A DNA stretch of 64,000 nt, from NCBI RefSeq assembly GCF_035953295.1, contig NZ_CP108371.1, positions 1 through 64,000 of the forward strand, read 5' to 3'. The position numbers and the translations under genes are program-made. Within the stretch, counting starts at the first letter, position 1, and each line of letters starts with the position of its first letter. The DNA comes from Streptomyces sp. NBC_01335 (GTDB taxonomy: Bacteria > Actinomycetota > Actinomycetes > Streptomycetales > Streptomycetaceae). Shown here piece after piece: positions 34,277 to 47,581 of the stretch. A model generated the notes under the pieces. That model searched no databases. It saw nothing but the letters and a program-made list of their open reading frames with translations, and was not told the origin of the DNA.

Positions 34277-34744
34277 GTGAACACGACTAGCCGCCCTACC
34301 GCCAGCCTCGCCACCGAGAGCTTCGACGCCCAGACGCTCGCGTTGCTGGACGCGATCGACGTGGAGCTGCCGGACTTCGGAGACATCGACCTGGACATCG
34401 CCTTCGGTACGCCGCTCGAGATGTACGAGCTGGTGACGGCGGACGAGCTCGCCAGGTGGGACGCCGCTTCCGCGCTGGCGAAGGGCAAGAGCAAGGCCCG
34501 CGACGACGTCATCGCGGAGTCCGGAGCACGGCGTGAGGCGGCCCGCGACATCCTCGCCGCCGACCCGTCGATCACCGCCCTCGTCCGCGAGCGCCTGGTC
34601 GACGTGCTTATTCCCCAGGCGCACCTCCTGCGCCGGCACATCGAAGGCGGCCACCACATCGCCCTTTTCACGGTCCACTTCCTCCCCCTCGGCATCACGG
34701 GCAGCGGCAAGTTCGGCGCGGCCGCGGAGCAGCTCGCCAGCTGA
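34277..34744 (+). CDS. Hypothetical acidic protein
   Basis: 155 residues from GTG with GAAGGGAG eleven bases upstream. The N-terminal 45 are acidic (DAIDVELPDFGDIDLDIAFG), the middle is a charged helix (ALAKGKSKARDDVIAESGAR), and the end is hydrophobic-neutral. It sits at the head of the long rightward array and is probably the gene most directly controlled by the divergent GntR regulator. No family is recognised. Confidence 0.72.
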   Translation: MNTTSRPTASLATESFDAQTLALLDAIDVELPDFGDIDLDIAFGTPLEMYELVTADELARWDAASALAKGKSKARDDVIAESGARREAARDILAADPSITALVRERLVDVLIPQAHLLRRHIEGGHHIALFTVHFLPLGITGSGKFGAAAEQLAS

Positions 34745-34922
34745 CCCGACGCCTTCTGCCGGAACCGCGCCTCGCGCGGCGCCGGTAGTGGGCGCCGGAT
34801 TACCCGGCTTCCAACGCACAGACCGACCCATCGTCGGCGGGCCACGCCAGGAGCGAGCCCAGAGACGAGAGCAGGCGGAACCGCCCGGACCCCCCGATTG
34901 CGGGGTGTGAAAGGAAGCGGCC

Positions 34923-34944: not shown

Positions 34945-35366
34945 ATCATGCGGGGCTGACGCGAGAGGCACGCCTGCTCTCCCCCCTACGCACGGCACGC
35001 CGTTCCCAGTTGATCGGGAACGGGGGGAAGGACCGGGAGCTGACCAGCGCGATGCACCACCGGCTGGATGGCAAGCGGATCGACCAGCGTGGCCCCAACG
35101 CATGTGGCGAGATGAGACAGATCGCCTCCGAGACAAGCCGGGTGAAGCTTGTCCCCGCGGCTCGACCTTGCCAGTCGCACCCACCACTTCAGTGAGGTGA
35201 CGCCGCACCGATGCGCTGGAACAACGGCGTGCGTCACAGATCGATATGACGCACCGGGCTTCCCGGCATCACCCGCAGAGGCAGGCGCCTGCCTCCCTCT
35301 GCTCCAGCTGTCACGCGCTTTCGGTGCGCACCGGCCAGTCCGGTGAGCAACGGGAAGCGCAGGACT

Positions 35367-35436
35367 GACGGTTGCCTGATCCGCTCGCACCGGCCTCGGC
35401 CGGAACGGGCGGTGAAGGGGAGCCGGACAGACCGTC
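35367..35436 (+). promoter_or_regulatory. Conserved intergenic RNA-like element, copy A
   Basis: The outer helix GACGGT/ACCGTC encloses TTGCCTGATCC, a weaker inner hairpin built on CGGCC/GGCCG, and GGTGAAGGGGAGCCGGACAG. It ends 70 bases before the next start codon. It is the most diverged hairpin of the five copies but has the longest outer helix. Confidence 0.75.
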
Positions 35437-35506
35437 CAGCCCCACCACGAGGACAGCCCCAGGGATTACGCCCCCGGGGCTGTCACGGACCTGAGAAGAG
35501 GCCCGA

Positions 35507-35866
35507 ATGCAGATCATGACACGACTTCGCCCCCTCGCCGCCGGTGGATACCGCGACCGGGAGGAAGAGGACAACCAGCGCGGGTACGAGCGCGACGAGA
35601 CGGACACCGACTTCCACCAGCTCGTCCGGCACCTCGCCACGGACGGCGACGACCGTGCCAGCACGGCCGGCCGCCGGGCGCGCCGGACGCTCGCCGAGAT
35701 GGTGCCCGGGTACGAGCAGCAGCCGATCCTCCGGATGACCCGGGCGCTTCCCCTGCGGGCGGCGACCGAGGCGTGTGGGGTGTGCAGCCGCTGGAACTGC
35801 AACTGCCCGCCCTGGGACGGCAAGGCTTCGGTCCGGGCGTACGCCGGGCTGTCGGCCGGGCGGTGA
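35507..35866 (+). CDS. Hypothetical basic protein with C-terminal cysteines
   Basis: 119 residues from ATG with GAAGAGG upstream. The first two thirds are charged and helical (DREEEDNQRGYERDETDTDF); the end has CGVCSRWNCNCPPW (about 90-103), four cysteines that could hold zinc. The stop overlaps the next start as GTGA. Confidence 0.72.
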   Translation: MQIMTRLRPLAAGGYRDREEEDNQRGYERDETDTDFHQLVRHLATDGDDRASTAGRRARRTLAEMVPGYEQQPILRMTRALPLRAATEACGVCSRWNCNCPPWDGKASVRAYAGLSAGR

Positions 35867-36027
35867 CCGTGGCCACCGTCTCGTGCAGCTCCTGCTGCGG
35901 ATCCGGTACGCGGATGGTGACCGTCAACCGCGTCGGTGCGGACGGCACCCCCTACCAGAGCGTGGAGAACGAGAACTGCGGGACGTGGTCCGGCTCTGGC
36001 CAGGTCAGCACCGGCGAGGACGGCTGA
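35863..36027 (+). CDS. 54-residue zinc-ribbon-like protein
   Basis: It starts at the GTG that overlaps the previous stop. CSSCCGSG near residue 8 resembles half of a DnaJ-type CxxCxGxG unit, and one further cysteine lies at about 41. Too little remains for a function. Confidence 0.6.
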   Translation: MTVATVSCSSCCGSGTRMVTVNRVGADGTPYQSVENENCGTWSGSGQVSTGEDG

Positions 36028-36287
36028 CGCTGAACCCCCTGCCGATACGGACGGCGCGGGGCGCGCAGTACCGCGCGGCCCGCGCCGCCGTTGTCCTCGG
36101 CCTGGCCCACCCGCTCACCCGCGTGCTGCTCGCGGCCGCCGCTGCGGCGGCCGCGACGGCGTGGGACGCGGGCCACCCGGTCGCCGACATCCACCCGCGC
36201 ACCACCGAGAGGCACCGGACCGGCCGCCCGCTCTTCGAGCGGCTCTGCCGCCTCCAGGACGCCTACCTGAACGACCAACGCTCCTGA
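35985..36287 (+). CDS. Small alanine-rich protein
   Basis: Up to 100 residues from the GTG chosen here; a CTG at 36030 behind GAGG would give 85 and avoid most of the overlap. One hydrophobic stretch (RVLLAAAAAAAATAW) could be a membrane helix or a plain alanine helix. The end is basic (RTTERHRTGRPLFERLCRLQ). Confidence 0.5.
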   Translation: MVRLWPGQHRRGRLTLNPLPIRTARGAQYRAARAAVVLGLAHPLTRVLLAAAAAAAATAWDAGHPVADIHPRTTERHRTGRPLFERLCRLQDAYLNDQRS

Positions 36288-36305
36288 CTCGATCGGAGAC
36301 GGACC

Positions 36306-36626
36306 ATGCAGACGCTGACCCTCAACCAGTTCCGCGCCGACCACGGTGACCCGGCCCGCTGGTGCGCCAGCGAGATCGACAGCTACCTCGTGTTCGGCGA
36401 CATCGCCCCGCCGGCCCCCGCGCCGTTCACCTTCGCGGAGATGCAGGAGGTCGCCGCCTGCTACGCCGAGTCCGCCGAGCGGGAGCAGGCGGTCGCCGAC
36501 AGCCTCGCCTCGAAGGGCCACACCGAGGCCGCCGACCTCTGGGCGCGCGGCGCCGAGACGTCCGCGCGGTACGCGGCCGCCGCCCGCCTGGGCTACCCCG
36601 CCTACGAGGCCGCTCTCAACAGCTGA
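36306..36626 (+). CDS. Hypothetical helical protein
   Basis: 106 residues from ATG with CGGAGA upstream. It is soluble and helical; the second half contains alternating alanine and glutamate helices (AACYAESAEREQAVADSLAS, AADLWARGAETSARYAAAAR). Copy B of the conserved element begins nine bases after its stop. Confidence 0.7.
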   Translation: MQTLTLNQFRADHGDPARWCASEIDSYLVFGDIAPPAPAPFTFAEMQEVAACYAESAEREQAVADSLASKGHTEAADLWARGAETSARYAAAARLGYPAYEAALNS

Positions 36627-36635
36627 CGGTCTGCA

Positions 36636-36719
36636 GGCTGCCTGATCCGCGAAGCCCCGCACCGCCCGTTCACCCGGGCCGGTGCGGGGCTTCGCGGTGA
36701 AGGGGAGCCGGACAGCCCG
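36636..36719 (+). promoter_or_regulatory. Conserved intergenic RNA-like element, copy B
   Basis: GGCTG pairs with CAGCC; inside are TGCCTGATCC, a 16-bp perfect stem (36649-36664 with 36680-36695, beginning GCGAAGCCCC) and GGTGAAGGGGAGCCGGACAG. The next start is 28 bases downstream, with its own ribosome site. Confidence 0.88.
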
Positions 36720-36747
36720 TGCCCACCACGCCCGAAAGGCGGCCCCC

Positions 36748-37284
36748 ATGTTCGAGTTGAACCACCGCACCACCCGCACCTCGCAGGAGCTGGAGCAGTC
36801 CTTCAGCCGCGACATCGAGGTGTTCGTCGCCGGTACGGTCGCCCCGTCCTCCCCGGCCGACACCCCCGCCGCCCTGCTCGAGGCCGCGTTCGCGCTGACC
36901 GAGGACCGCACCGACTGGCTGCGGTGGGGGCTCAGCGGCATGCCGATGACCGGCGAGCAGATCGCCTCCCACGCCGAGGCCGCGATCACCATCCTGCGCA
37001 CCGCCGGATGGAACCCGTCGCTCCCGGCGGGCCGCGGCATCAGTGCCGCCCTGCGGCACGCCGAGACCGTCGACACCACCCAGCGCTTCTGCACCGACAC
37101 CAACAGCGCCCTGGACGACATCTTCGCGCTGCTGATCCGGGCGCTGACCGGCGCACCGTTCGCCACCTACACGTTCTGGGACCAGCACCCGGGCCGCCAG
37201 GTCGAGGAAGTCTTCGGGCTCCTCGCCGCCGCGGCCTCGTTCGCCCGCGCCTACGGCCCGGCCGAGTCCGCCCTGAGCGCCTGA
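36748..37284 (+). CDS. Hypothetical soluble protein
   Basis: 178 residues from ATG; the frame is open further upstream through element B but that part is not protein-like. It is helical with mixed composition (FELNHRTTRTSQELEQSFSR, DDIFALLIRALTGAPFATYT). No motif is recognised. It is flanked on both sides by hairpins. Confidence 0.72.
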   Translation: MFELNHRTTRTSQELEQSFSRDIEVFVAGTVAPSSPADTPAALLEAAFALTEDRTDWLRWGLSGMPMTGEQIASHAEAAITILRTAGWNPSLPAGRGISAALRHAETVDTTQRFCTDTNSALDDIFALLIRALTGAPFATYTFWDQHPGRQVEEVFGLLAAAASFARAYGPAESALSA

Positions 37285-37309
37285 CCCCCTTGTTCGACCT
37301 GTCGGTCTG

Positions 37310-37330
37310 CCCCCTGCCTGCGGCAGGGGG
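37310..37330 (+). terminator. Intergenic hairpin
   Basis: CCCCCTGCC/GGCAGGGGG with loop TGC, between two array genes. It could be an attenuator or a weak terminator. Confidence 0.6.
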
Positions 37331-37352
37331 CGCCGGAAACGTGAGGACGCAC

Positions 37353-37709
37353 ATGATGCAGAAAGCCACCCAGCACGCCGCGCAACAGGGCTTCAAGCGG
37401 GGCGACTTCGTCCTGTACCGGGACCCCGCCCGGTACTGGACGGGCCAGCCCAATCACACCTTCGTCTGCCAGATCACCTTCAGCTGGCACACCGGCGAGT
37501 GGAACCTGCGCGTGGTCGAGACGGGGGTGGAGACCTACCGGGTTTCCGAGGAGTACATGCGGCTGCTGCCGGCGGCGGAGGCGATGGTCGACATCGACAC
37601 CGCCCCGCTGCGGGCCGCCAACGCCGCCGCCGCGATGGACGTGTCCGCGCTGGCCTGGCTGGTCCAGAACGATCCGCGCCGGGCCATCAACGGTCACCCG
37701 CAGGTCTGA
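37353..37709 (+). CDS. Hypothetical protein
   Basis: 118 residues from the first of two adjacent ATGs, behind GTGAGGAC. The middle is beta-rich (GDFVLYRDPARYWTGQPNHT, EWNLRVVETGVETYRVSEEY), suggesting a small SH3-like or beta-barrel domain; the end is helical. The stop lies one base before element C. Confidence 0.7.
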   Translation: MMQKATQHAAQQGFKRGDFVLYRDPARYWTGQPNHTFVCQITFSWHTGEWNLRVVETGVETYRVSEEYMRLLPAAEAMVDIDTAPLRAANAAAAMDVSALAWLVQNDPRRAINGHPQV

Positions 37710-37710
37710 C

Positions 37711-37795
37711 GGCTGCCTGATCCGCGAAGCCCCGCACCGCCCCGCTGGCCGGGGCCGGTGCGGGGCTTCGCGGTGAAGGGGAGCCGGACAGCCCG
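37711..37795 (+). promoter_or_regulatory. Conserved intergenic RNA-like element, copy C
   Basis: Same plan as copy B with an identical 16-bp stem (37724-37739 with 37756-37771) but a different loop. Flanks TGCCTGATCC and GGTGAAGGGGAGCCGGACAG are unchanged. It ends 25 bases before the next GTG. Confidence 0.88.
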
Positions 37796-37820
37796 CGCCC
37801 ACCACCTCCTGGAGGACCTC

Positions 37821-38027
37821 GTGATCTCCCTTCCCCTCTTCCTGTTCTCCGGCGGCGCCGTCTACCTGTGCTGGCGCTCGGAGATGCGCCTGGGCGTCCT
37901 GGTGGCCGCCCTGGTGTGCGGCTACGCGCTCGCCACGTCGCCGCTGTCCGCCGCGATCGACGGTCTCGGCACCGGCATCAGCACCGCGATCTCCAGCGCC
38001 AACAGCGCCACCGCCGCCAGCAAGTGA
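37821..38027 (+). CDS. Small membrane protein
   Basis: 68 residues from GTG with TGGAGG upstream. Two hydrophobic segments (about 2-18, ISLPLFLFSGGAVYLCW, and 23-42, RLGVLVAALVCGYALATSPL) are followed by a polar tail. Small membrane proteins next to the transfer ATPase are typical of Streptomyces Spd (spread) proteins, an inference from position only. Confidence 0.7.
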   Translation: MISLPLFLFSGGAVYLCWRSEMRLGVLVAALVCGYALATSPLSAAIDGLGTGISTAISSANSATAASK

Positions 38028-38049
38028 CCTGGTGCCGCTTGCCCGTGGC

Positions 38050-38074
38050 CCCGCACCCCCGTCCGGGGTGCGGG
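38050..38074 (+). terminator. Intergenic hairpin
   Basis: CCCGCACCCC pairs with GGGGTGCGGG around a five-base loop, 66 bases before the next start. Confidence 0.6.
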
Positions 38075-38140
38075 ACCGCGGGGAGGTGACTACCGCCCCC
38101 GGCCCGCACGGCCCCCTCACCCGGAAGGAACCCACCCGAT

Positions 38141-38596
38141 ATGAGCGACAGCGACAGCGACAGCGACAGCGGCGAGAAGCTCGGCTCGACTCTGGCCCAG
38201 CTGATCCAGCAGCTGGAGAAGATCGAGTTCACCACCGACCGCGACCTCTACCAGTACGCCCGGATCCTGCGGGCGATCGGCCTGGAGCTCCACATGCGGA
38301 TCGGGATGGACGCCGACATGGTCGGCGCCATCCTCGCCCAGTACAAGGGCAAGTGGTGGACCTTCGGGGCCCAGTCCAAGATCCGCGCCCTGCTGGTCGC
38401 CGCGCACCTCAAGAGCGGCGCCTCCGCCGCGAAGGTGCTCGGTCTGTCCGGCATCAAGATGTACGCGTCCTTCGTCAAGCACTTCATCCAGCCGGAGATC
38501 GAGGCCGAGCGCAAGGCCCGCGAGGGCAAGGGCAAGAAGCCCGGCTTCTCCATCGGTGACAAGCCCCGCGGTGCGGGTGAAAGGGGAGCGGCCTGA
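38141..38596 (+). CDS. Conserved protein coupled to the TraB-like ATPase
   Basis: 151 residues. It begins with a run of SD dipeptides encoded by a GACAGC tandem repeat, then a helical domain (LAQLIQQLEKIEFTTDRDLY, LRAIGLELHMRIGMDADMVG) and a basic lysine/glutamate tail. Its stop overlaps the ATPase start as TGATG, so the two are translated together and the protein is a likely partner in transfer. The family is not recognised. Confidence 0.75.
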   Translation: MSDSDSDSDSGEKLGSTLAQLIQQLEKIEFTTDRDLYQYARILRAIGLELHMRIGMDADMVGAILAQYKGKWWTFGAQSKIRALLVAAHLKSGASAAKVLGLSGIKMYASFVKHFIQPEIEAERKAREGKGKKPGFSIGDKPRGAGERGAA

Positions 38597-40743
38597 TGGC
38601 ACGGTTCTCCCGTCGCGCGAAGAAGATCGACACCACCCCGCCGGACGAGCAGAACCCGACGTCCCCGTGGATCACGTACGGCGGGCCGTGGGGCATCAGC
38701 ATCGGCGGCTGCGTCGTCGCCGAGACCGCCCACGTCCTCCTCGCCACCACCCCGGCCTCCCTGGCGCTCGCCGCGCTCGGCCTGGCCGGCACCGGCGCGG
38801 CGCTGTCCAAGCTGATCAGCCACATGGACATCAAGGCCAAGCGCGACAAGGACCTGCGGATCATGCACCAGGTCAACACGCTCGCGACGACGGCCGGGAT
38901 CACCCTCGGCACCGTCGTCGGCCTGGAGACCGGCGCGACGATGGGCACCTGGGCGCTCGCCGGGTCCGGCCTGTGCATCGCCAACCACCTCTGGTCGGCG
39001 CTGTACAAGAAGGGCGCGGCGGAGAAGGCCGACGGGAAGTGGGCCAAGCTCGAAGCGGAGATCGGGCTGGCCAAGCACGAGCTGAAGGACGCCACGTCCA
39101 ACGGCAAGGGCACGGTCGTCGCCCAGGTCGAGGCGAAGGACGGGGCGACGGCGGACGAGTTCGCCCGCCGGCTCCCCGCCATGGCGTCCGCGCTGAAGGT
39201 CGGCAAAGGGCGCATCACCCACACCGTCGACGACGAGGACTCCTCGCTGATCACCATGCGGGTCCAGGTCGCCGACCTCCTCAAGGACGGCTTCGCCTGG
39301 CCCGGCCCGTCCGCGTTCGGCGCCGGGTTCGGTGACCTGCCGATCAGCCTCGGACAGTACGAGGACGGCGAGACCCTCAAGCTGAACCTCGCCGGACAGC
39401 TCACCGACCCTCAGGAGGTCGAGGGCGGCGGGAACGTCGAGCACTGCGTCGCCCAGGGCACCAACGGCGCGGGCAAGACCGTCGGCAACAGCATCATCGT
39501 GACCGAGGCCGCCACCCGCACCGAGGTGTCCGTCATCATCATCAACTGCTCGAAGTTCATGCAGGACTACGGGCACGTCCGGCACGCCGCCGACATGGTC
39601 ATCAGCGATGAGAAGGACGCCCGCCGGTTCTTCAAGCAGATGCACACCGTCATCAAGGCCCGCGGTGAGTACCTCGCCGCGAAGGGCCTGTCGAAGTGGA
39701 AGCCCGGCTGCGGCCTGAACTTCCTGCTGATCATCGGAGAGGAAGCCGCCGACTTCGCCGACGGCGACGCCTACGGCAAGGTCCTGCGCACCCTGCGCAG
39801 CACGGGGGGTTGGTTCCTCTCCTCCATCCAGCGCGCCACGCACGATCAGATGGACACCACGGCGCGCTCCAACCACCCCGCCGGTATGGCCTACGGGCTG
39901 TCCGACGGGGCGGAGGCCCAGTACATCCTGCCGCCCGAGGCGATCGAGGCCGGCGCGTTTCCCGGCTGGGGCAACAGGAAGCCCGGCTACCTGTACGCGG
40001 CCGGGATGGGCATCGCGGAGGACCGGTGGGCGGTCACCGCCCGTACGTACTACGCCGAGCGCGCCACCCTGGCGGCGGCCGTCACGGCGGGCATGAACGT
40101 GCGCACCCCCATGGACGAGACGACCGCGAACGCGTTCGGCGCGCTGTGGAAGGACCGCACCTTCTACACCACCCCGCTCCTGGAGGGCGACGCCGACGGT
40201 GCCGGCGCCTTCCCCCAGCAGCAGGCGGCCGCTCCGGCCGCCGTCGCGTCGGCGGACCCGTCCTCCGCGTACGACAGCGACGCCGACGAGGAGGACGACG
40301 ACATGGACATCGAGGTCGACGAGGACCTGCTCGCGAAGGAGACCGAGGAATTGGACGACGCACTGCGGCAGATCCTCGCCGAGGACCCCGAGCCCGGCGA
40401 GTACACCGACCTGGACGCGGAGAGCGAGATCGAGGCGCCGGCCGCCGACGCCCCCGTCTTCTCCCTGCCCGGCCTGGTGGGCGACGCGGAGAAGCTCTCC
40501 CCCGAGGCCACCCGGGACGCCATCTTTGCTCGCCTGGATTCCTGGGTGCGCGAAGGCAAATCGTCCTTCGAGCCCAAGGAGCTCAACGACCTGTGGATGC
40601 GGGTCGACAAGAAGGGCGCCCGCGACTGGTGGAACCGCCTCAAGAAGCAGCTCCTGGACGACGGCGTCATCGCCAAGGACGACTCCGAAGAGGGCTACGG
40701 ATCGTACGACCTGATCCGCTCCCCCCTCGAAAACGGCAACTGA
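38596..40743 (+). CDS. FtsK/SpoIIIE-like plasmid transfer ATPase (TraB-type)
   Basis: 715 residues. Membrane helices occupy about 33-75 and 98-128. The RecA-like motor has Walker A GTNGAGKT (288-295) and Walker B LLIIGEEAAD (377-386). An acidic linker (about 560-620) leads to a winged-helix-like end (ELNDLWMRVDKKGARDWWNR near 665-685). In Streptomyces, TraB proteins form hexameric pores that move double-stranded plasmid DNA into the recipient after recognising short repeats through a C-terminal winged helix; this layout fits. It is coupled to the preceding gene and lies mid-array. Confidence 0.9.
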   Translation: MARFSRRAKKIDTTPPDEQNPTSPWITYGGPWGISIGGCVVAETAHVLLATTPASLALAALGLAGTGAALSKLISHMDIKAKRDKDLRIMHQVNTLATTAGITLGTVVGLETGATMGTWALAGSGLCIANHLWSALYKKGAAEKADGKWAKLEAEIGLAKHELKDATSNGKGTVVAQVEAKDGATADEFARRLPAMASALKVGKGRITHTVDDEDSSLITMRVQVADLLKDGFAWPGPSAFGAGFGDLPISLGQYEDGETLKLNLAGQLTDPQEVEGGGNVEHCVAQGTNGAGKTVGNSIIVTEAATRTEVSVIIINCSKFMQDYGHVRHAADMVISDEKDARRFFKQMHTVIKARGEYLAAKGLSKWKPGCGLNFLLIIGEEAADFADGDAYGKVLRTLRSTGGWFLSSIQRATHDQMDTTARSNHPAGMAYGLSDGAEAQYILPPEAIEAGAFPGWGNRKPGYLYAAGMGIAEDRWAVTARTYYAERATLAAAVTAGMNVRTPMDETTANAFGALWKDRTFYTTPLLEGDADGAGAFPQQQAAAPAAVASADPSSAYDSDADEEDDDMDIEVDEDLLAKETEELDDALRQILAEDPEPGEYTDLDAESEIEAPAADAPVFSLPGLVGDAEKLSPEATRDAIFARLDSWVREGKSSFEPKELNDLWMRVDKKGARDWWNRLKKQLLDDGVIAKDDSEEGYGSYDLIRSPLENGN

Positions 40744-40754
40744 ACGTCACCACC

Positions 40755-40801
40755 GAGGCCGGGTTCGCACAGCGCACACCGCACTGTGTGAACCCGGCCT
40801 C
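40755..40801 (+). terminator. Hairpin after the transfer ATPase gene
   Basis: Eighteen-base arms with one mismatch (GAGGCCGGGTTC...GAACCCGGCCTC) enclose an 11-base loop, 11 bases past the stop. Between it and the next gene GCACAC/GTGTGC words recur (near 40770, 40820, 40835, 40878), possible operators. Confidence 0.7.
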
Positions 40802-40912
40802 CCCTCTAGGACTTTTCCGGTGTGCACCCCCGCACACAGGCAGTTCATCCCGCTTTGCACCCCGCGCACAGTGCGCCGCACACCACCCCGAACACTACGG
40901 AGGGTAACAAGA

Positions 40913-42382
40913 ATGAGTGCCCCGACCGTGCCCCGGCCCACCCGGGCCGGAGCGCCCCCCGCCCCCGCGCCCGAGCCGCCCGTCAGCGCCGACGACGCCG
41001 CCAAGGCCCGCAACTCCATCACCAAAGTCGACAACGTCCTGACTATGGTCACCAAGGCGCTCCTCGCCCTCGGCGGCGGCGCTTTGATCTTCACTTGTGT
41101 GAATGTGACCCGGTTCGGGATGTCCCACGACATCCCTTGGTACATCGCCTGGATGCTCGACCCGCTGGCCAGCCTCGCCCTGATCACCGTCCTGTACGTC
41201 GACGGCGTCCTCGCCGAGCACGGCGGCGACTACAAGCCCGGCGGCTGGCCGTTCCTGCTCCGCTGGACCGCCGGCCTGTCCACCTGGGTCATGAACTGCT
41301 GGACGTCGCTCTACCCCGACGCCCACTTCCACTTCGTGCCCAAGACGCCGGACGCCGGGGGCATCCTGCTCCACTCCGTCGCCCCGGCCCTGCTGATCCT
41401 CCTCGCGGAAGCCGCCACCGGGTACCGCAAGTACGCGACCCGGCGGCGCGGTGAACTCGCCGCGATCATCGGCCGGTTCGAGAGCGCGAAGGCCGCAGAG
41501 CGCGAGACCGCCGAAAAGCGAGCCCGCGAGGTCGCCGAACGCGAGGCCGCCGACAAGCGCGAGGCCGCAGAACGCGAGGCGCAGCGGGAACGCGAGGCCG
41601 AAGAACGCGAGGCCGCCCGGCAAGAACGCGAGGAGAACGCGAGGCTCGAAAACGAGCGGCGCGCCGCAGAAATCGAGGCGGCCGACCACGCTCGCCGGGC
41701 GGAAATCGAGGCGGACCGCGAGCGGCTCCGGATCAAGGAACGGGCCGCACAAATCGAGGCGGCGCAGCGCAAGACCGACGCCGAGATCGAGGCGCAGCAG
41801 GAGCGCGCCCGGTGGGAGCTGGAGCAGGCCGACCGCGACCGGGACGCCAAGCGCCGGGCGGAGATCACCACGGCAGAAGCCCAGGCAGACGCGCTGCGCA
41901 AGGAGGCCGAGGCCAAGGCGGAGGCCGAGCGGATCAAGGCGGAGGCCGAGGCCCGCGCCCTGGAGGAAGCGGAGAAGATCAAGCGTCAGCGGGCCCTGGA
42001 GCGGGCCGCCGCCAAGACTCGCGGAGTCTCGGAAAGTGGTGGCGTGCGTGCCTCGATTTCTTCCGGCCGCTCCTCGGAAAACGGGCTCGCGCTCAGCGCG
42101 GTCCCCGCTCTGACCGCCTCGGAAAACACGGTGCGGGTGCCTCGCGAAGTGCGCGAGCAGCAGCGTGACGAAGCCGAGCGGTACATCGCGAAGTGCTCGC
42201 TTTCCGGTGTCGCACCGGATCTGGAGCGGCTCGCGAACCAGTACGGCAAGGGCGAGACGTGGGTCGGAGACCGGGCCCGCGCCGCGAAGCGCCGCCTCGC
42301 GGAAGAGGACGGATTCGAGGAGTCGGTCATCGCCGACGCCCTGGACGTCTTCGAGGACAGCACCGACGCGGGTGCGGCATGA
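40913..42382 (+). CDS. DUF2637-type membrane protein with long coiled coil and HTH-like end
   Basis: 489 residues; ATG chosen because GGAGG lies nine bases upstream. Four hydrophobic segments lie between about 45 and 175 (e.g. MVTKALLALGGGALIFTCVN, LDPLASLALITVLYVDGVL), the DUF2637 pattern. A remarkable coiled coil of some 200 residues follows, built of repeated AEREA/EIEA units, then a C-terminal domain with VREQQRDEAERYIAKCSLSG and YGKGETWVGDRARAAKRRL that resembles an HTH. It is probably a membrane-anchored DNA or complex organiser for transfer, by context. The next gene overlaps by ATGA. Confidence 0.72.
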   Translation: MSAPTVPRPTRAGAPPAPAPEPPVSADDAAKARNSITKVDNVLTMVTKALLALGGGALIFTCVNVTRFGMSHDIPWYIAWMLDPLASLALITVLYVDGVLAEHGGDYKPGGWPFLLRWTAGLSTWVMNCWTSLYPDAHFHFVPKTPDAGGILLHSVAPALLILLAEAATGYRKYATRRRGELAAIIGRFESAKAAERETAEKRAREVAEREAADKREAAEREAQREREAEEREAARQEREENARLENERRAAEIEAADHARRAEIEADRERLRIKERAAQIEAAQRKTDAEIEAQQERARWELEQADRDRDAKRRAEITTAEAQADALRKEAEAKAEAERIKAEAEARALEEAEKIKRQRALERAAAKTRGVSESGGVRASISSGRSSENGLALSAVPALTASENTVRVPREVREQQRDEAERYIAKCSLSGVAPDLERLANQYGKGETWVGDRARAAKRRLAEEDGFEESVIADALDVFEDSTDAGAA

Positions 42383-42588
42383 GGCGCCGGCCCGGCACCC
42401 GGCCGGAGAACGAAAACGAGAACGAGACGGAGCTGGACTTCACCACCACCGGCGCCGGGGTCGACTTCACCCACCAGGGCGGCGACCCCGTGCCCCTGCT
42501 CCCCGCGCCCGGATCCGGCCACCCGCCGACGATCCTGCTGCGCTACGAGGCGCTGCTGCCCACGCGGTGGCGCCAACTGACCGACTGA
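42379..42588 (+). CDS. Small acidic hypothetical protein
   Basis: 69 residues, coupled to the preceding gene by ATGA. The N-terminus has an alternating EN tract (PENENENETELDF). No structure or function can be assigned. Confidence 0.6.
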   Translation: MRRRPGTRPENENENETELDFTTTGAGVDFTHQGGDPVPLLPAPGSGHPPTILLRYEALLPTRWRQLTD

Positions 42589-42731
42589 GCACCCCGTGCT
42601 TCGACGGCTCCACTGGCCCCCGGAAGTGAAGGAAGCACCTCCGGAGGCCGGTGAAGAGGCCGAAGCCTCCCCCGGGCGATCTCACGCCAAATGACACTGC
42701 CCGAGCTCCCCATCAGAGGAGAGGACCCATC

Positions 42732-43253
42732 ATGCCGTCTCCCGGCAACCAGCCCCACCCCGGCTACCCCGTCTACGCCCCGACGCCGCTCACCCCCGCC
42801 TACAACCCGGCGCCCGCCCCGTACGGCGCCCCGCACCCCGTCGCGTACGGCGCGCCGCTCCCCGAGGGCACCGTCGTCTACCCGGCGGCCCCGGGCATGG
42901 ACACCGTCGTCACCGTCCCCGGCCTGTACGGACAGCAGATCTCCTACTACGCGGCCCCGCCCGCCCCCGCCCCGCAGCCCTACGTCTCCCCGCTCCTGGT
43001 GAAGGCCGCGCTGGTGGCGTTCATCCTCGGCGTCACCGGAGTCGGCATCTACTTCCTGGCGACCGCGCTCGTCGCCCTCATCAACGCGGTCGTGCTCCTG
43101 GTCGCCGTCCTCGCGGGCGGCGCGCTGGTGCTGAAGATGTTCAGCACCAGCGCCGGCCGCCGCACCCCGATCACCGTCCAGGCCCGCGGCCGCGCCAAGG
43201 TCCAGATCCACACCGGCATCGGAAACAACCGTGGCCGCCGCGGCGGCCGCTGA
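42732..43253 (+). CDS. Proline-rich membrane protein
   Basis: 173 residues from ATG behind GAGGAGAGG. The first 90 residues are a proline/tyrosine-rich extension (PTPLTPAYNPAPAPYGAPHP); two membrane helices follow (about 98-118 LLVKAALVAFILGVTGVGIY and 120-142), then a basic tail. Spd-like proteins of Streptomyces plasmids often have this kind of layout. It overlaps the next gene by 23 bases. Confidence 0.7.
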   Translation: MPSPGNQPHPGYPVYAPTPLTPAYNPAPAPYGAPHPVAYGAPLPEGTVVYPAAPGMDTVVTVPGLYGQQISYYAAPPAPAPQPYVSPLLVKAALVAFILGVTGVGIYFLATALVALINAVVLLVAVLAGGALVLKMFSTSAGRRTPITVQARGRAKVQIHTGIGNNRGRRGGR

Positions 43254-43683
43254 TCCCACCCCCGGCGGACAGCCGCCCGTCCGGGACGTGCCGATGTACG
43301 AACCCCGCACCGGGGCGCTGCCCGTCTACCGGTGGCGCCAAGCCCCGAAAGGGCTCGCCACCCGCCGCCAGCTGCGCGAACAACGGCTGCGGCCCGGCGG
43401 CCAGGACCCGGTCGCCGTCATCGAATGCCGGGGCGGCAAGCGCAAGGCGTGGCTGTACGAGATCGACCGCGCCCTGCCGATCCGGCCGATGACCCTCGCC
43501 AAGGAGGTCGCGCTCGACAAGGCGATGGCCAAGCGCCAGACCTGCCCGACCTGCCGGCGCCGCTACACCCACTGCTTACCCCTGCGCACCCTCGGGGCGT
43601 GCCTGGATTGCCACGACGGCACCCCGGCCGCGCCCTTCAGCTATGTGCTGCCGCCCGGCGAGTCTTTCGCGGCTGCGGCGTGA
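43231..43683 (+). CDS. RRQRL-motif zinc-binding protein
   Basis: 150 residues from a GTG inside the previous gene. YRWRQAPKGLATRRQLREQR and LRPGG (about 32-56) form the conserved block that names this Streptomyces plasmid family; CPTC (about 104-107) and CLDC (about 127-130) make a zinc ribbon. Role unknown; the motif suggests nucleic-acid binding. It is followed by element D. Confidence 0.72.
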   Translation: MAAAAAADPTPGGQPPVRDVPMYEPRTGALPVYRWRQAPKGLATRRQLREQRLRPGGQDPVAVIECRGGKRKAWLYEIDRALPIRPMTLAKEVALDKAMAKRQTCPTCRRRYTHCLPLRTLGACLDCHDGTPAAPFSYVLPPGESFAAAA

Positions 43684-43702
43684 ACCCCTTCCCGCGTCTG
43701 CC

Positions 43703-43759
43703 GGTTGCCTGATCCACCCGCCCGTGCGGCGGGTGGTGAAGGGGAGTCGGCCAGCCCGG
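43703..43759 (+). promoter_or_regulatory. Conserved intergenic RNA-like element, copy D
   Basis: GGTTGCCTGATCC, then a 7-bp stem ACCCGCC/GGCGGGT with a five-base loop, then GGTGAAGGGGAGTCGGCCAG. The stem sequence differs completely from copies B and C but pairs perfectly. It ends 34 bases before the next GTG. Confidence 0.85.
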
Positions 43760-43793
43760 CCTGTCCCGTGACCACCGTGAAGGAGCCCGCCCG

Positions 43794-44387
43794 GTGACCG
43801 AGCCCGTCCCGCACGACCCCCAGTCCCCCGTCCCGCCGCTGGACACCATCGACGACAGCCAGCGCATCCCGCCCCGGCGGCCCGCCCCGCTCCGGCGGCC
43901 GCCGATCAGCTCCGCCGACGACCTCCCGGCCGGTGCCGTCGCCGCCCTCGGGTTCGTCAGCATCGTCGCCCTGGTCCTCACCCTCACCTGGGCCGTCCCC
44001 AGGGGCATCACCTGGTACCACCACCAGGACTGGGCGTGGGTCACCCAGGCGACCGCCACCGTCGCCGACCCCGTCCACGCCTACCTGACCGCGCACACGG
44101 CCGGCCTTCCGCTGACGGCCTCCAGCGCGTTCGTGATCTGGCAGGGCGTCGGCCTCGGAGCCCTCGCCGCGTCCTGGTTCACCGGCGCCGTCGGCGCCCG
44201 CCTGACCTGGATCGCGCACGGCACCTGCTCGGTCCTCATGGTCTGGGACGCCTCCCCCGCCGCAGGCCGACCCGTCGCCACCGCGCTCACCGTCCTCGCC
44301 TGGACGATCGGCAGCCTCTTCGCCCTGCGCGGCCTGTCCCTGCGCCCGCTGATCCACCTGCACAACCACAACCAACCGTCTCGCTGA
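43794..44387 (+). CDS. Multi-helix membrane protein
   Basis: 197 residues from GTG with AAGGAG upstream. A proline-rich cytoplasmic head of about 45 residues precedes four hydrophobic segments (near 47-68, 105-130, 132-150, 158-178). There is no signal peptide and no catalytic motif. Similar proteins are common in transfer regions of Streptomyces plasmids; function unknown. Confidence 0.72.
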   Translation: MTEPVPHDPQSPVPPLDTIDDSQRIPPRRPAPLRRPPISSADDLPAGAVAALGFVSIVALVLTLTWAVPRGITWYHHQDWAWVTQATATVADPVHAYLTAHTAGLPLTASSAFVIWQGVGLGALAASWFTGAVGARLTWIAHGTCSVLMVWDASPAAGRPVATALTVLAWTIGSLFALRGLSLRPLIHLHNHNQPSR

Positions 44388-44393
44388 TCTGAC

Positions 44394-44456
44394 GGCTGCC
44401 TGATCCACCCGCCCCGCCTCGCGGGCCGGGTGGTGACGGGGAGCCGGACAGCCCGG
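44394..44456 (+). promoter_or_regulatory. Conserved intergenic RNA-like element, copy E
   Basis: GGCTGCCTGATCC, then an 11-bp stem with one mismatch (ACCCGCCCCGC with GCGGGCCGGGT, loop CTC), then GGTGACGGGGAGCCGGACAG. The next GTG is 18 bases downstream, so this copy could touch ribosome access. Confidence 0.85.
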
Positions 44457-44474
44457 CCCGGATGGGAATCGCAC

Positions 44475-44942
44475 GTGACCATCGCCCCTCTCACCAACAC
44501 CGGCGACCGGAACCGGGACACCGCCTGCGCCGCCGTCACCGGGGAGATCGCCCGCACCGACAGCAAGGCCAGCCTCCTGCTCGCCTTCACCGGTGCGGTC
44601 CTCGCCGGTCTGGCCAGCATCGCCGACAAGGACCTGCCCGTGTTCACGAAGGTCGTCGGCGGCCTGGCCGTCCTCGCCCTCGCCGCCGCGGCGGTCTTAC
44701 TCCTCCTGGTCGTCCGGCCCTGCCTCACGGTCGGCACGGCCGCACCGGGCACCTTCCCGCAGTGGGCGCGCCTGGAGGAGAACGAACTCGAGGTGGCGAT
44801 GGAGCAGGACCACCGCCTCGCCTGCATCAAGGCGCTGTCGATCCTCGCGGCCCGCAAGTTCCAGCGCCTGACCCTCGCGGTCGACGTCATCCTCGCCGCG
44901 CTCGCCCTGCTGACCACTGCGGCGATCGGGGTGCTGGTGTGA
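44475..44942 (+). CDS. Pycsar-effector-like (PycTM-type) membrane protein
   Basis: 155 residues from GTG. The opening TGEIARTDSKASLLLAFTGA is the conserved lead of the PycTM family, directly running into the first membrane helix. A second helix follows (about 58-80, LAVLALAAAAVLLLLVVRPC), then a cytoplasmic segment with DHRLACIKALSILAARKFQR and a third helix. In Pycsar defence, such proteins open the membrane when a cUMP or cCMP signal appears. No pyrimidine cyclase gene is present in this window, so here it may serve plasmid biology instead or respond to a host signal. It is coupled to the next gene by GTGA. Confidence 0.58.
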   Translation: MTIAPLTNTGDRNRDTACAAVTGEIARTDSKASLLLAFTGAVLAGLASIADKDLPVFTKVVGGLAVLALAAAAVLLLLVVRPCLTVGTAAPGTFPQWARLEENELEVAMEQDHRLACIKALSILAARKFQRLTLAVDVILAALALLTTAAIGVLV

Positions 44943-45073: not shown

Positions 45074-45643
45074 ATGGCACTCACCCTGTTCGCCCGCCGC
45101 CCCGAGCCCGTCGAAGCGCCGGCCCCCGACCCGTGGCCCGAGATCGGCGAGACCTGGAAGCCCGAGGGCGTCACCATCGCCCAGCGGTACTACAACCAGG
45201 CCCACGCGGTCGTTCTCGTCTACACCCCCGACGACGACAAGACCGGTCACTGCTACACGGTCGCGTGCCTCGGCTGCCACTTCGCCTCCGCGTACGGCGG
45301 AAAGCCCACGTACACCCCCTACGGCCTTGCCCAGGCCGCGACGGTCGCCAACGAGCACGCCACGACCTGCCGCGCACTGCCCCGCACCCTTCCCGCCCGC
45401 CCGGACGACGACACCGTGCGCGAGCAGTTGCACGCCTGGGTGAACGACAACCGCCGTTACGCGACCAACCAGCTGTGGCTCTCCTCCCTGGACCTGCGCC
45501 GCCTCACCATGCAGCGCACCACCGCCTGGATCGAGAACGTGCTCCAGCAGCTGGCAGCCGACCAGCCCGACGTCCTGCGTATCGAGCGCAGCAGCCACAG
45601 CGGCTACGTCTCCTACTACGCCCGCAGCAAACCGAAAAACTGA
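45074..45643 (+). CDS. Hypothetical protein with possible zinc site
   Basis: 189 residues, starting four bases after the previous stop. CLGCH (about 65-69) and a later H/C pair (ANEHATTC, 93-100) could hold zinc in the N-terminal half; the C-terminal half is helical with QLWLSSLDLRRLTMQRTTAW. No family is recognised. A 13-bp-arm hairpin follows. Confidence 0.7.
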   Translation: MALTLFARRPEPVEAPAPDPWPEIGETWKPEGVTIAQRYYNQAHAVVLVYTPDDDKTGHCYTVACLGCHFASAYGGKPTYTPYGLAQAATVANEHATTCRALPRTLPARPDDDTVREQLHAWVNDNRRYATNQLWLSSLDLRRLTMQRTTAWIENVLQQLAADQPDVLRIERSSHSGYVSYYARSKPKN

Positions 45644-45659
45644 CCGGCGCTCACCGTGC

Positions 45660-45693
45660 GCCCCCGCCCGCCGGCCACCCGGCGGGCGGGGGC
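45660..45693 (+). terminator. Intergenic GC hairpin
   Basis: GCCCCCGCCCGCC/GGCGGGCGGGGGC with an eight-base loop, 60 bases before the next start. Confidence 0.65.
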
Positions 45694-45752
45694 GTCGCGG
45701 TGTCCGCCGGGTCAACCGAGACCAGGCGACCGGCCCTCCCCCGGAGGTCACC

Positions 45753-46234: not shown

Positions 46235-46927
46235 ATGAACGCATCCCTGCGCCAGGTGGCCACCACCGTCGCCAGCTCGATGATCGACGGCGCCAGCATG
46301 GTCGCCGCGCTGATCGGCGGCGCCACCGGCGCCTACCTCGGCTACCAGATCACCCCCACCTCCTGGGCCGACAGCCTGCGGATCACCGCGGCCGGGGCCG
46401 CCGCCGTCTTCGGCGCGATCGCCGTCGACGGCCTCGCCGAACACGCCCTCGCCCCGCTGCGCCGGATGACCCGCGTTACGTTCATCCCCACCCGCCAGTC
46501 CGCCCCGGCCCCGGCCGCCACGCTGGACGAGGCCCTCGCCCAGGTCATCACCGCGACCGAGGACGACGCCGCACACCGAGCCGCCAACGGCGCCTTCCAG
46601 ATCGACGGCGGCGACACGTTCCTGCGGGACGCGAGCCGGTGGCGCGGCTACGAGAACGGCGAGGCGTCCTTCTACCTCGCCCCGGGCGTCGTGCTCCACC
46701 ACCGCGCCGAGAGGGACGAGTACAAGCACACCTTCACGCTGCTGACCGGCGACGGCGAGCAGCCGGTGCGCATCACCGGGATGGAGCAGGTCCGCCACCA
46801 CCTCGCCGCCCGCGCCGCCGGCCTCCCCGCCGCCCCGGTGACCACCGGCACCGGGGACGGGGCCGGCGACGAGCACAGGGTCTCGGTCGCCGAGCTCGAC
46901 GACTACCTCAAGGCCCTCGAGGGCTGA
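46235..46927 (+). CDS. Membrane-anchored hypothetical protein
   Basis: 230 residues from ATG with AAGGAG upstream. Two hydrophobic segments (about 18-38 and 48-70) form a hairpin with glycine-rich turns; the cytoplasmic rest includes FLRDASRWRGYENGEASFYL and VVLHHRAERDEYKHTFTLLT, a small mixed domain. Function unknown. It is followed by a nested hairpin element. Confidence 0.7.
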   Translation: MNASLRQVATTVASSMIDGASMVAALIGGATGAYLGYQITPTSWADSLRITAAGAAAVFGAIAVDGLAEHALAPLRRMTRVTFIPTRQSAPAPAATLDEALAQVITATEDDAAHRAANGAFQIDGGDTFLRDASRWRGYENGEASFYLAPGVVLHHRAERDEYKHTFTLLTGDGEQPVRITGMEQVRHHLAARAAGLPAAPVTTGTGDGAGDEHRVSVAELDDYLKALEG

Positions 46928-46928
46928 C

Positions 46929-46986
46929 GGGCTGCCCGTTCCGCCCCGGCCCTTCCGGCCGGGGCGGTGCGGTGGCCAATCAGCCC
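46929..46986 (+). promoter_or_regulatory. Nested hairpin element F
   Basis: GGGCTG/CAGCCC encloses CCGCCCCGGCC/GGCCGGGGCGG with loop CTTCC. It has the same two-helix plan and place as elements A-E but lacks their conserved single strands. The same inner hairpin recurs near 49595. Confidence 0.6.
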
Positions 46987-47011
46987 CGCCTCCGAGAGGA
47001 ACCCCTCCCCG

Positions 47012-47581
47012 ATGCCCCTCACCAAGAACAGGACCTCCAAGCTCAGCGTCCTGCGCTACGGCGCCTTCGTCTCCCGCACCGCCGAACAGCGCGTCCTCTC
47101 CCGCGCGTCGGCCGTTCAGAACCTGGTCCACGACCACTACGGCCGCCGCCCGCTGGGCCCGGTCACGATCGTCCTGACGAAGCCGCACCTGCTCCTCGGG
47201 CTCGCCAACGAGGCGCAGGGCGAAGCGGCCGCTGTCCCGGCCAACGTCTGGAAGTCCGCCGGCACCAAGCAGGCCATCGTCGGCAAGACCCGGGACTTCC
47301 GCGTCGCCACGGTCATCGCCCCCAAGGGCGCGATGTGGATGCTGCTGTCCGCCCCGAAGCTGCGCGACCGCAAGCAGCTCCAGCTCGCTCTGCTGCGCGG
47401 CTTCGTCGAAGTCGACCAGCTCATCCGCTCCGGCGCCCGTGAGAACCGCATCACCTGGATCCGCCACGAGATGAAGGTCCACCCGCTCAGCAAGCGCCAG
47501 GCCAACAAGTTCCAGGCGCAGATGTTCGCCGACGGAGCCGAAGCCGAACGCGTCACCGCCGACCTCGCCCGGCGCCTGTGA
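47012..47581 (+). CDS. Hypothetical basic protein
   Basis: 189 residues; ATG selected with GAGAGG upstream. It is strongly basic overall, with beta-type stretches (GPVTIVLTKPHLLLGLANEA, VATVIAPKGAMWMLLSAPKL) and a helical C-terminus (LSKRQANKFQAQMFADGAEA). A nucleic-acid-binding role would fit the charge but is not shown. Confidence 0.7.
   Translation: MPLTKNRTSKLSVLRYGAFVSRTAEQRVLSRASAVQNLVHDHYGRRPLGPVTIVLTKPHLLLGLANEAQGEAAAVPANVWKSAGTKQAIVGKTRDFRVATVIAPKGAMWMLLSAPKLRDRKQLQLALLRGFVEVDQLIRSGARENRITWIRHEMKVHPLSKRQANKFQAQMFADGAEAERVTADLARRL

Follow-up and report, generated by a model that had tools for sequence, protein, structure and literature searches.

The REP/BIME palindromes are conserved imperfect hairpins that occur in several copies at gene ends, and an integron attC site is a variable hairpin with conserved ends located directly 3′ of the stop codon of a gene. 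Streptomyces conjugation employs an unusual double-stranded DNA translocator, and the control of the genes involved is thought to be mainly transcriptional, by GntR-type repressors. The RNase III site R1.1 of bacteriophage T7, from between genes 1.0 and 1.1, is a 60 nucleotide (nt) hairpin with a 4/5 internal loop (PMC6121014, in part), and the rpsO-pnp intergenic hairpin of S. coelicolor is also an RNase III cleavage site (PMC5872136, in part). The stretch of DNA analyzed here, termed the window, comprises the initial 64 kb of the 106,933-base contig C2 (NZ_CP108371.1) of Streptomyces sp. NBC_01335; contig C1, of 8.2 Mb, presumably represents the chromosome. A conserved irregular hairpin is repeated at gene junctions in this window, and its relatives form a family with the same pairing, a single orientation and a fixed position between open reading frames (ORFs). 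We consider it, with a probability of roughly 0.4, to be a cis-acting structured RNA that punctuates the polycistronic transfer operons carried by plasmids and integrating conjugative elements of Streptomyces, with the hairpin bound and cut by a double-stranded RNA factor, such as RNase III. That RNA is the acting form, and that it is bound, cut and affects expression, we infer.

The copies in the window, with their scores against the covariance model R1, are as follows.

35361..35436, + strand: copy A; R1 81.4 bits, E 1.4e-17; fold z -2.8
36627..36721, + strand: copy B, between ORFs 36306-36626 and 36748-37284; R1 63.4 bits; fold z -8.2
37702..37797, + strand: copy C, between an ORF ending at 37709 and ORF 37821-38027; R1 65.2 bits; fold z -5.8
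43694..43760, + strand: copy D, between the RRQRL zinc-protein gene (end 43683) and ORF 43794-44387; R1 74.7 bits; fold z -1.5
44385..44457, + strand: copy E, between ORF 43794-44387 and the PycTM-domain gene 44475-44942; R1 89.7 bits; fold z -2.55
46920..46989, + strand: copy F, a diverged sixth copy between ORFs ending at 46927 and starting at 47012; R1 21.5 bits
47579..47645, + strand: copy G, possibly a seventh copy but strongly diverged, between the ORF that ends at 47581 and that starting at 47666

Copies A to E had been reported, on the + (coding) strand, in a preliminary description of the window, and all five are present at those positions beyond chance expectation. The sequence TGCCTGATCC is found exactly five times in the window, every time inside a copy, and the 3′ block GGTGAMGGGGAGYCGGMCAG has five occurrences with no mismatches, where shuffling predicts 0.12 matches at ≤3 mismatches. 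Minimum-energy folding reproduces the pairings that had been given for copies B to E, although by energy alone copy D (z -1.5) is unremarkable, as is copy A when folded on another stretch (z -1.6). The elements had been placed correctly but their starts had been put too late. The R1 matches begin 6-9 nt 5′ of the reported starts (at 35361, 36627, 37702, 43694 and 44385 for A to E, respectively), with the first paired base, or conserved stretch, 2-5 nt before them, and the wider extent is used because CTG and the next C (A in copy B) face G and CAG. Stop codons had also been located 1-19 bases 5′ of copies B to E, but the ORF upstream of copy C, which ends at 37709, uses the element's own TGA as its stop. 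This is perhaps also the case for copy A, as a putative 40-codon ORF (35246-35368) ends on its TGA. Copy A is followed by a terminator-like hairpin (GACAGCCCC..GGGGCTGTC, at 35452-35484) that has no U tract and is located just before the next gene, which starts at 35507. Second hairpins of this type are also present 3′ of leader copies in loci L077, L102, L088 and L012, and that after copy A may serve as an attenuator or as a further site of processing.

The preliminary description had listed five copies only. That copy F is a genuine, diverged sixth copy is supported by E values of 0.027 with R1, and 0.0019 with the filters off, and by counterparts located ~2.5 kb 3′ of an E-type copy in six relatives (L023, L031, L072, L076, L077 and L079). 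The case for copy G as a seventh is weak; it retains a basal helix, CTGACGT/ACGTCAG, and has a fold z of -4.7, with an R1 score of 13.1 bits (E 0.27, filters off). There is also a weak R1 match (15.7 bits, E 0.055, filters off) on the + strand at 34739-34808, 5′ of copy A, that may be due to chance or may be another diverged copy.

Individual copies are irregular hairpins of ~60-95 nt, and the structure used here consists, from the base upward, of CUG/CAG, C-G, GGYU/AGCC, CC/GG, an internal loop with UGAU facing UGAMG, CC/GG and a variable upper stem. The basal module is CUGAC-GGYUGCC paired with GGGGAGCC-GGACAG, and the UGA stop codon of the upstream gene is often built into it. In the window subtype, the internal loop has 4 x 5 nt; the upper stem is free to vary in sequence. 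Inspection by eye of the relatives revealed subtypes: GCCTGATCC/GGTGAMGGGG, to which the window copies belong, GCCCGATCC/GGTGAGGGG and GCCTCCTCC/GGGGYCGAGGGG, with GGYTGCC/GGGGAGCC-GGACAG common to most of the copies inspected across subtypes. Given these differences, the strands previously regarded as invariant are conserved within one subtype only, as relatives differ in the internal loop or, in a few cases, pair fully there. In five GCCTCCTCC-like copies (L110 888, L122 965, L146 970, L141 2857 and L084 9917) a second strong hairpin is present 3′ of the element, with the start of an ORF after it, and by eye the product of this ORF begins M-x-x-I-A-A-L in four of the five.

An exact-pattern scan gave 37 loci. 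Sixteen without basal arms, one of them from Streptomyces, were left out by eye, and the remaining 21 Streptomyces/Kitasatospora loci contributed 27 copies that, with five copies from the window, make up alignment A1. Within these 32 sequences, 8 of the 17 pairs have changes on both sides. Alignment A3 has 139 matches from 100 loci, 137 rows being distinct; the loci were picked because matches are present, so A3 is no measure of frequency, and L107 and L124 share the same two copies. Across the 137 distinct rows, 14 of the 17 pairs have both-side changes with pairing kept (97 cells) and 97.1% of all cells pair, values that were each reached in 0 of 500 shuffles. When the partner was slid by one column, pairing fell to 54-69%. 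As A3 had been fitted to the model, a custom tree-aware null was also run, in which the parsimony substitutions on a FastTree tree were replaced at random in 200 simulations. Among the 2080 column pairs, the top four all belong to the upper stem (E values of 0.005, 0.06, 0.14 and 0.98). The upper stem shows compensatory change that keeps the helix, as for a structured cis-acting RNA, and the initial proposal of a selected, covarying hairpin family agrees with both the shuffle and the tree-aware results. Evidence for pairing is weaker for the basal helix, which is nearly invariant; for the 23 copies with both basal arms off consensus, the mean folding energy was -14.9 kcal/mol with their own arms and -13.2 kcal/mol with swapped arms, a difference reached in 0 of 200 shuffles. 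For 112 of the 139 copies, folding is better with the sense strand than with its complement, a mild sign in favor of RNA, though the G-U rules alone could yield the same result.

To describe the surroundings of the 139 copies, ORFs were called with a Streptomyces-like codon bias in the direction of the element, with the strand flipped as the control. An upstream ORF ends at the element in 123 copies (22 in the flipped control), an ORF starts 3′ of the element in 116 (control, 76) and co-directional ORFs are present on both sides in 104 (control, 12). The next start is at least 10 nt past the element in all 116 cases and 15-35 nt past it in 81 of them. The stop codon is the element's own TGA in 58 of the 139 copies and is upstream in 62; no upstream ORF was found for 16, and in 3 the stop is elsewhere. 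In the 62 copies with the stop upstream, the A of the TGA is kept in 33 and the next C, which is paired, in 59, and so the stop codon shares the helix strand but does not define the helix. All copies are on one strand at 26 of the 26 multi-copy loci (E 1e-4), in keeping with the single orientation noted for the window. Counting singletons, the flanking proteins form 94 groups. The element is therefore not bound to one gene or pathway, which speaks against gene-specific regulation, and with neighbors this varied it looks like a generic form of punctuation at the gene junctions of conjugative operons. Of 89 loci with the element, 75 also hold at least one of five transfer-module protein groups, 53 of these loci being ≤8.6 kb; the groups were formed by single linkage and so may join unrelated proteins. 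The gene for the RRQRL zinc protein is enriched, being present in 88 of 106 genomes with the element and 156 of 286 others. Relative to the window and L091, loci L092 (12076-12566) and L103 (12091-12566) have an extra gene plus one copy of the element between the E-type copy and the PycTM gene, which looks like the gain or loss of a gene-plus-element unit.

At least 106 of 392 Streptomyces genomes have a match to R1 at E ≤0.001, a lower bound as the scan used strict filters and 12 scored candidates per genome. In a sample of the order, 68 of 197 genomes match model R2, all in one genus of the six sampled, and in a sample of the class 19 of 394 genomes match, 16 of them in the genus of the window. 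The other three matches are weak (33-38 bits). Each extends across ORFs at least ~400 codons long, and all three are taken to be chance hits, leaving no convincing match outside the genus in the 394 genomes of the class sample. Many of the covariance-model matches are intergenic in Streptomyces transfer operons. Copy E has matches in 125 plasmid records, 122 from Streptomyces and three labeled Kitasatospora, and one Embleya plasmid matches another copy. The best plasmid matches to the window are from Streptomyces in 118 of 121 records. There is one match in pEN2701 and none in 8,000 of the 8,830 bases of pIJ101. Plasmids with the element also include pSGRIFU2 of S. griseofuscus DSM 40191 and pCLA1 of S. 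clavuligerus ATCC 27064. In its own genome, the element has matches on contig C2 only. A phage origin was considered and rejected, as a search of a phage collection with two query copies gave no convincing match. One IMG/VR contig (L193, 9120-9160) has an exact match to the element pattern and may be an integrating element misclassified as viral.

The operon that holds the copies extends on the + strand from ~35.4 kb and encodes a TraB-like transfer ATPase, by which it is marked as a transfer operon, an RRQRL zinc protein and a PycTM-domain protein. In addition to the copies, these features are relevant.

38036..38090, + strand: irregular hairpin, similar in shape (CTTGCC..GGGGAGG), at a further junction, a candidate only; fold z -4.2
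38596..40743, + strand: TraB-like FtsK/SpoIIIE transfer ATPase; NF041214 E 8e-87, 292 bits, under the cut-off of 800
43231..43683, + strand: RRQRL motif-containing zinc-binding protein gene, upstream neighbor of copy D; NF041638 135.8 bits, cut-off 65
45641..45715, + strand: very stable irregular hairpin that starts at a stop codon and is placed in the gene junction as the copies are; fold z -8.5, sequence unrelated to the family

The ATPase also has an FtsK_SpoIIIE match (6e-4) under the cut-off. The hairpin at 38036..38090 has only a chance-level R1 match, and this is on the opposite strand. The annotated relatives are mostly linear plasmids with a similar gene order and a GntR regulator in the opposite direction. 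A PycTM (Pycsar effector) domain protein is encoded at 44475-44942, within this plasmid transfer operon, and the same annotation is present in 36 of the best 40 plasmid records that match this stretch; the protein may be a membrane component of transfer and not a defense effector. Assignment of the protein encoded at 40913-42382 as DUF2637 was rejected, as it has no Pfam match and comparison with an annotated DUF2637 protein gave nothing significant. Stable irregular hairpins of unrelated sequence are present at other junctions of the operon as well. Folding of the gaps between genes gave z ≤-2.2 for 11 of 15 hand-picked operon gaps (mean -3.8). The control gaps came from a crude ORF finder that gave none in the plasmid's next 20 kb, and this z was reached by 5 of 14 from the chromosome (mean -1.05) and by 1 of 6 from 1-34 kb of the window (mean -0.54). 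Mann-Whitney values for the operon gaps are 0.006 against the chromosome and 0.001 against both controls pooled, and 0.011 for the eight operon gaps without family copies against the 20 controls.

Under the favored explanation, that the element is a punctuation hairpin acting as RNA, departure of the upstream ribosome would allow the hairpin to fold and to be bound by a double-strand-RNA factor, most simply the host RNase III, which would then cut in or near the internal loop. The remaining stems would protect the new ends, giving each cistron its own stability and insulating it from its neighbors. With a stop codon on one side and a separate ribosome site on the other, the irregular stem, of about two helical turns, fits the anatomy of an RNase III site, and the host genome encodes an RNase III gene; with the precedents of T7 R1.1 and rpsO-pnp, these features argue for a double-strand-specific factor. 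The fixed position and orientation of the element fit RNA better than DNA. The strong conservation within the copies had been suggested to mark a ligand contact, a protein contact or an RNA-processing site. Nothing found suggests a ligand, with the flanking proteins in 94 groups, and a protein contact or processing site is probably the best reading of this anatomy.

Several results weigh against this explanation. In the tree-aware test no basal pair was significant, and in the 80 copies with either basal arm non-canonical, own arms were no better than swapped arms (59 of 200 shuffles were at least as good). G-U exceeds A-C by 74 to 37 in the 17 model pairs, 40 of the 74 being contributed by one pair, and over the whole upper stem the counts are 35 to 50. 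Without a clear strand bias in these wobble counts, a role at the DNA level is compatible with the pairing, and action as RNA therefore rests on placement. By eye, a few relatives have paired bases in place of the internal loop, and strong hairpins are also present in some chromosomal gaps (the 5 of 14 above). RNase III sites usually have little sequence conservation. The basal module, unlike such sites, is strongly conserved, so that a dedicated sequence-reading protein may be needed, and this suggests that something also reads the sequence of the conserved base.

Such a protein is the center of one alternative, in which the hairpins are an operon-wide regulatory RNA and an element- or host-encoded protein that binds the basal module at each junction sets the level of translation or of the transcript for the transfer genes, for example keeping it low until mating. 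The basal sequence is kept across subtypes beyond the needs of pairing and the copies are mostly in transfer modules (75 of 89 loci). Nevertheless, no partner protein was found, the RRQRL zinc protein was not found in 18 of 106 element genomes, for which reason it was rejected as an obligate partner despite its enrichment, and with starts ≥10 nt beyond the element (116 of 116) the ribosome sites are mostly outside the hairpin, the fact on which Shine-Dalgarno sequestration was also rejected. This alternative is unlikely, although it deserves to be kept in mind. Similarly tentative is a dedicated post-transcriptional control of conjugation, in which one RNA-binding factor would read the basal module at successive junctions, the recognition helix often containing the stop codon of the gene before it, and termination would be coupled to the processing or expression of the next gene. 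A switch coupled to translation is a more doubtful proposition. A ribosome at the element's UGA would cover CUGACGGCU, allowing the 3′ strand to refold to CCGG-ACAGN-CCGG and so alter re-initiation or decay. The element's TGA serves as the stop in 58 of 139 copies and an alternative hairpin (≥4 bp) is possible in 120 of the 139 tails versus ~24 when shuffled, yet the stop is upstream in 62 copies, and tails with swapped halves still form the alternative hairpin in ~115 of 139 cases, so that there is no support for it from covariation. A riboswitch was rejected because the downstream genes do not belong to one pathway or ligand class.

We regard it as quite improbable that the element acts on transcription, as a terminator, an attenuator or as protection from Rho in long untranslated gaps. 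The hairpins are stable, a terminator-like hairpin is located 3′ of copy A and of several leader copies and, as reported in part of PMC8269248, 353 of 535 highly structured transcript ends in S. clavuligerus lack a U tract. Against this, no U tract was seen by eye after the inspected copies, the elements occupy one junction after another and leave a promoter little space ahead of the following start codon, which is 15-35 nt away in 81 of 116 cases, and generic protection from Rho would need no conserved sequence. A promoter within the element was likewise rejected, as the spacing is variable and the room small. A DNA element, either a single-stranded or cruciform hairpin that serves as a cassette boundary, as attC does, or a dispersed repeat of the REP type, would agree with the lack of strand bias in the wobbles and with the extra gene-plus-element unit in L092 and L103. 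The strict placement between a stop and the next start, copies at a given junction that look orthologous by eye between plasmids, and a host genome with no integron integrase over the cut-off and no Y1 transposase make this very unlikely. REP/BIME identity was rejected in particular, as the element is not dispersed in both orientations, all 26 of 26 multi-copy loci having one strand, and its own-genome matches are on C2 only. Two further candidates were set aside, a translated small ORF inside the element, as the reading frames differ among copies, and a kink-turn or hammerhead core, as by eye the bulge or core bases required are absent.

None of the outcomes listed beforehand as contrary to the family, namely no covariation, hits in both orientations or a match to an Rfam family, was found. 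Searches with Rfam 15 (4227 families) at gathering score gave no match in the window or in 13 relative loci, consistent with the initial statement that the element belongs to no named family. An E-value scan of 35200-44600 gave eight Rfam matches, all far under the gathering scores, and three of these, all on the opposite strand, touch copy A, copy B or the gap that directly follows copy A. No description of the element was found by searches of the open-access literature aimed at it, a negative whose scope excludes subscription papers and supplements, and the contents of surveys of Streptomyces non-coding RNAs (for example PMC3765725 and PMC11678152) and of a 104-RNA survey (PMC2864571). A structured RNA present in about a quarter or more of the sampled Streptomyces genomes, recurring within transfer operons and frequently tied to a stop codon, points to an overlooked layer of RNA. 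The covariance model is ready for use in the annotation of these elements and offers a way into the study of mRNA processing in bacteria of high GC content, and the hairpins are, possibly, natural insulating parts for Streptomyces operons.

When compared with known systems, the element resembles the REP/BIME palindromes in being a conserved imperfect hairpin with several copies at gene ends. It differs from them in having one orientation and in being mostly in transfer modules, and the genome has no RAYT-type Y1 transposase (0 matches to PF01797). With attC it shares a variable hairpin with conserved ends just past a stop codon, but no attC core was seen in the element, and the integron integrase TIGR02249 has only two sub-threshold matches in the host genome, both on C1. 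The rpsO-pnp hairpin is, like the element, intergenic in a Streptomyces operon, with RNase III cutting described for rpsO-pnp itself (PMC5872136, in part); it is one site in one chromosomal operon, whereas the present element is repeated and matches no Rfam family. The RNase III site R1.1 of T7 early mRNA is similar in plan, an irregular hairpin of ~60 nt that lies between genes and has an asymmetric 4/5 internal loop (PMC6121014, in part). The present element differs in that its base is conserved over many replicons and a stop codon is often in the helix, and its cleavage is only predicted. It is therefore best filed with a known kind of element, the intergenic mRNA punctuation hairpins, to which it adds a conserved sequence, frequent anchoring at a stop codon and a location mostly within conjugative modules.

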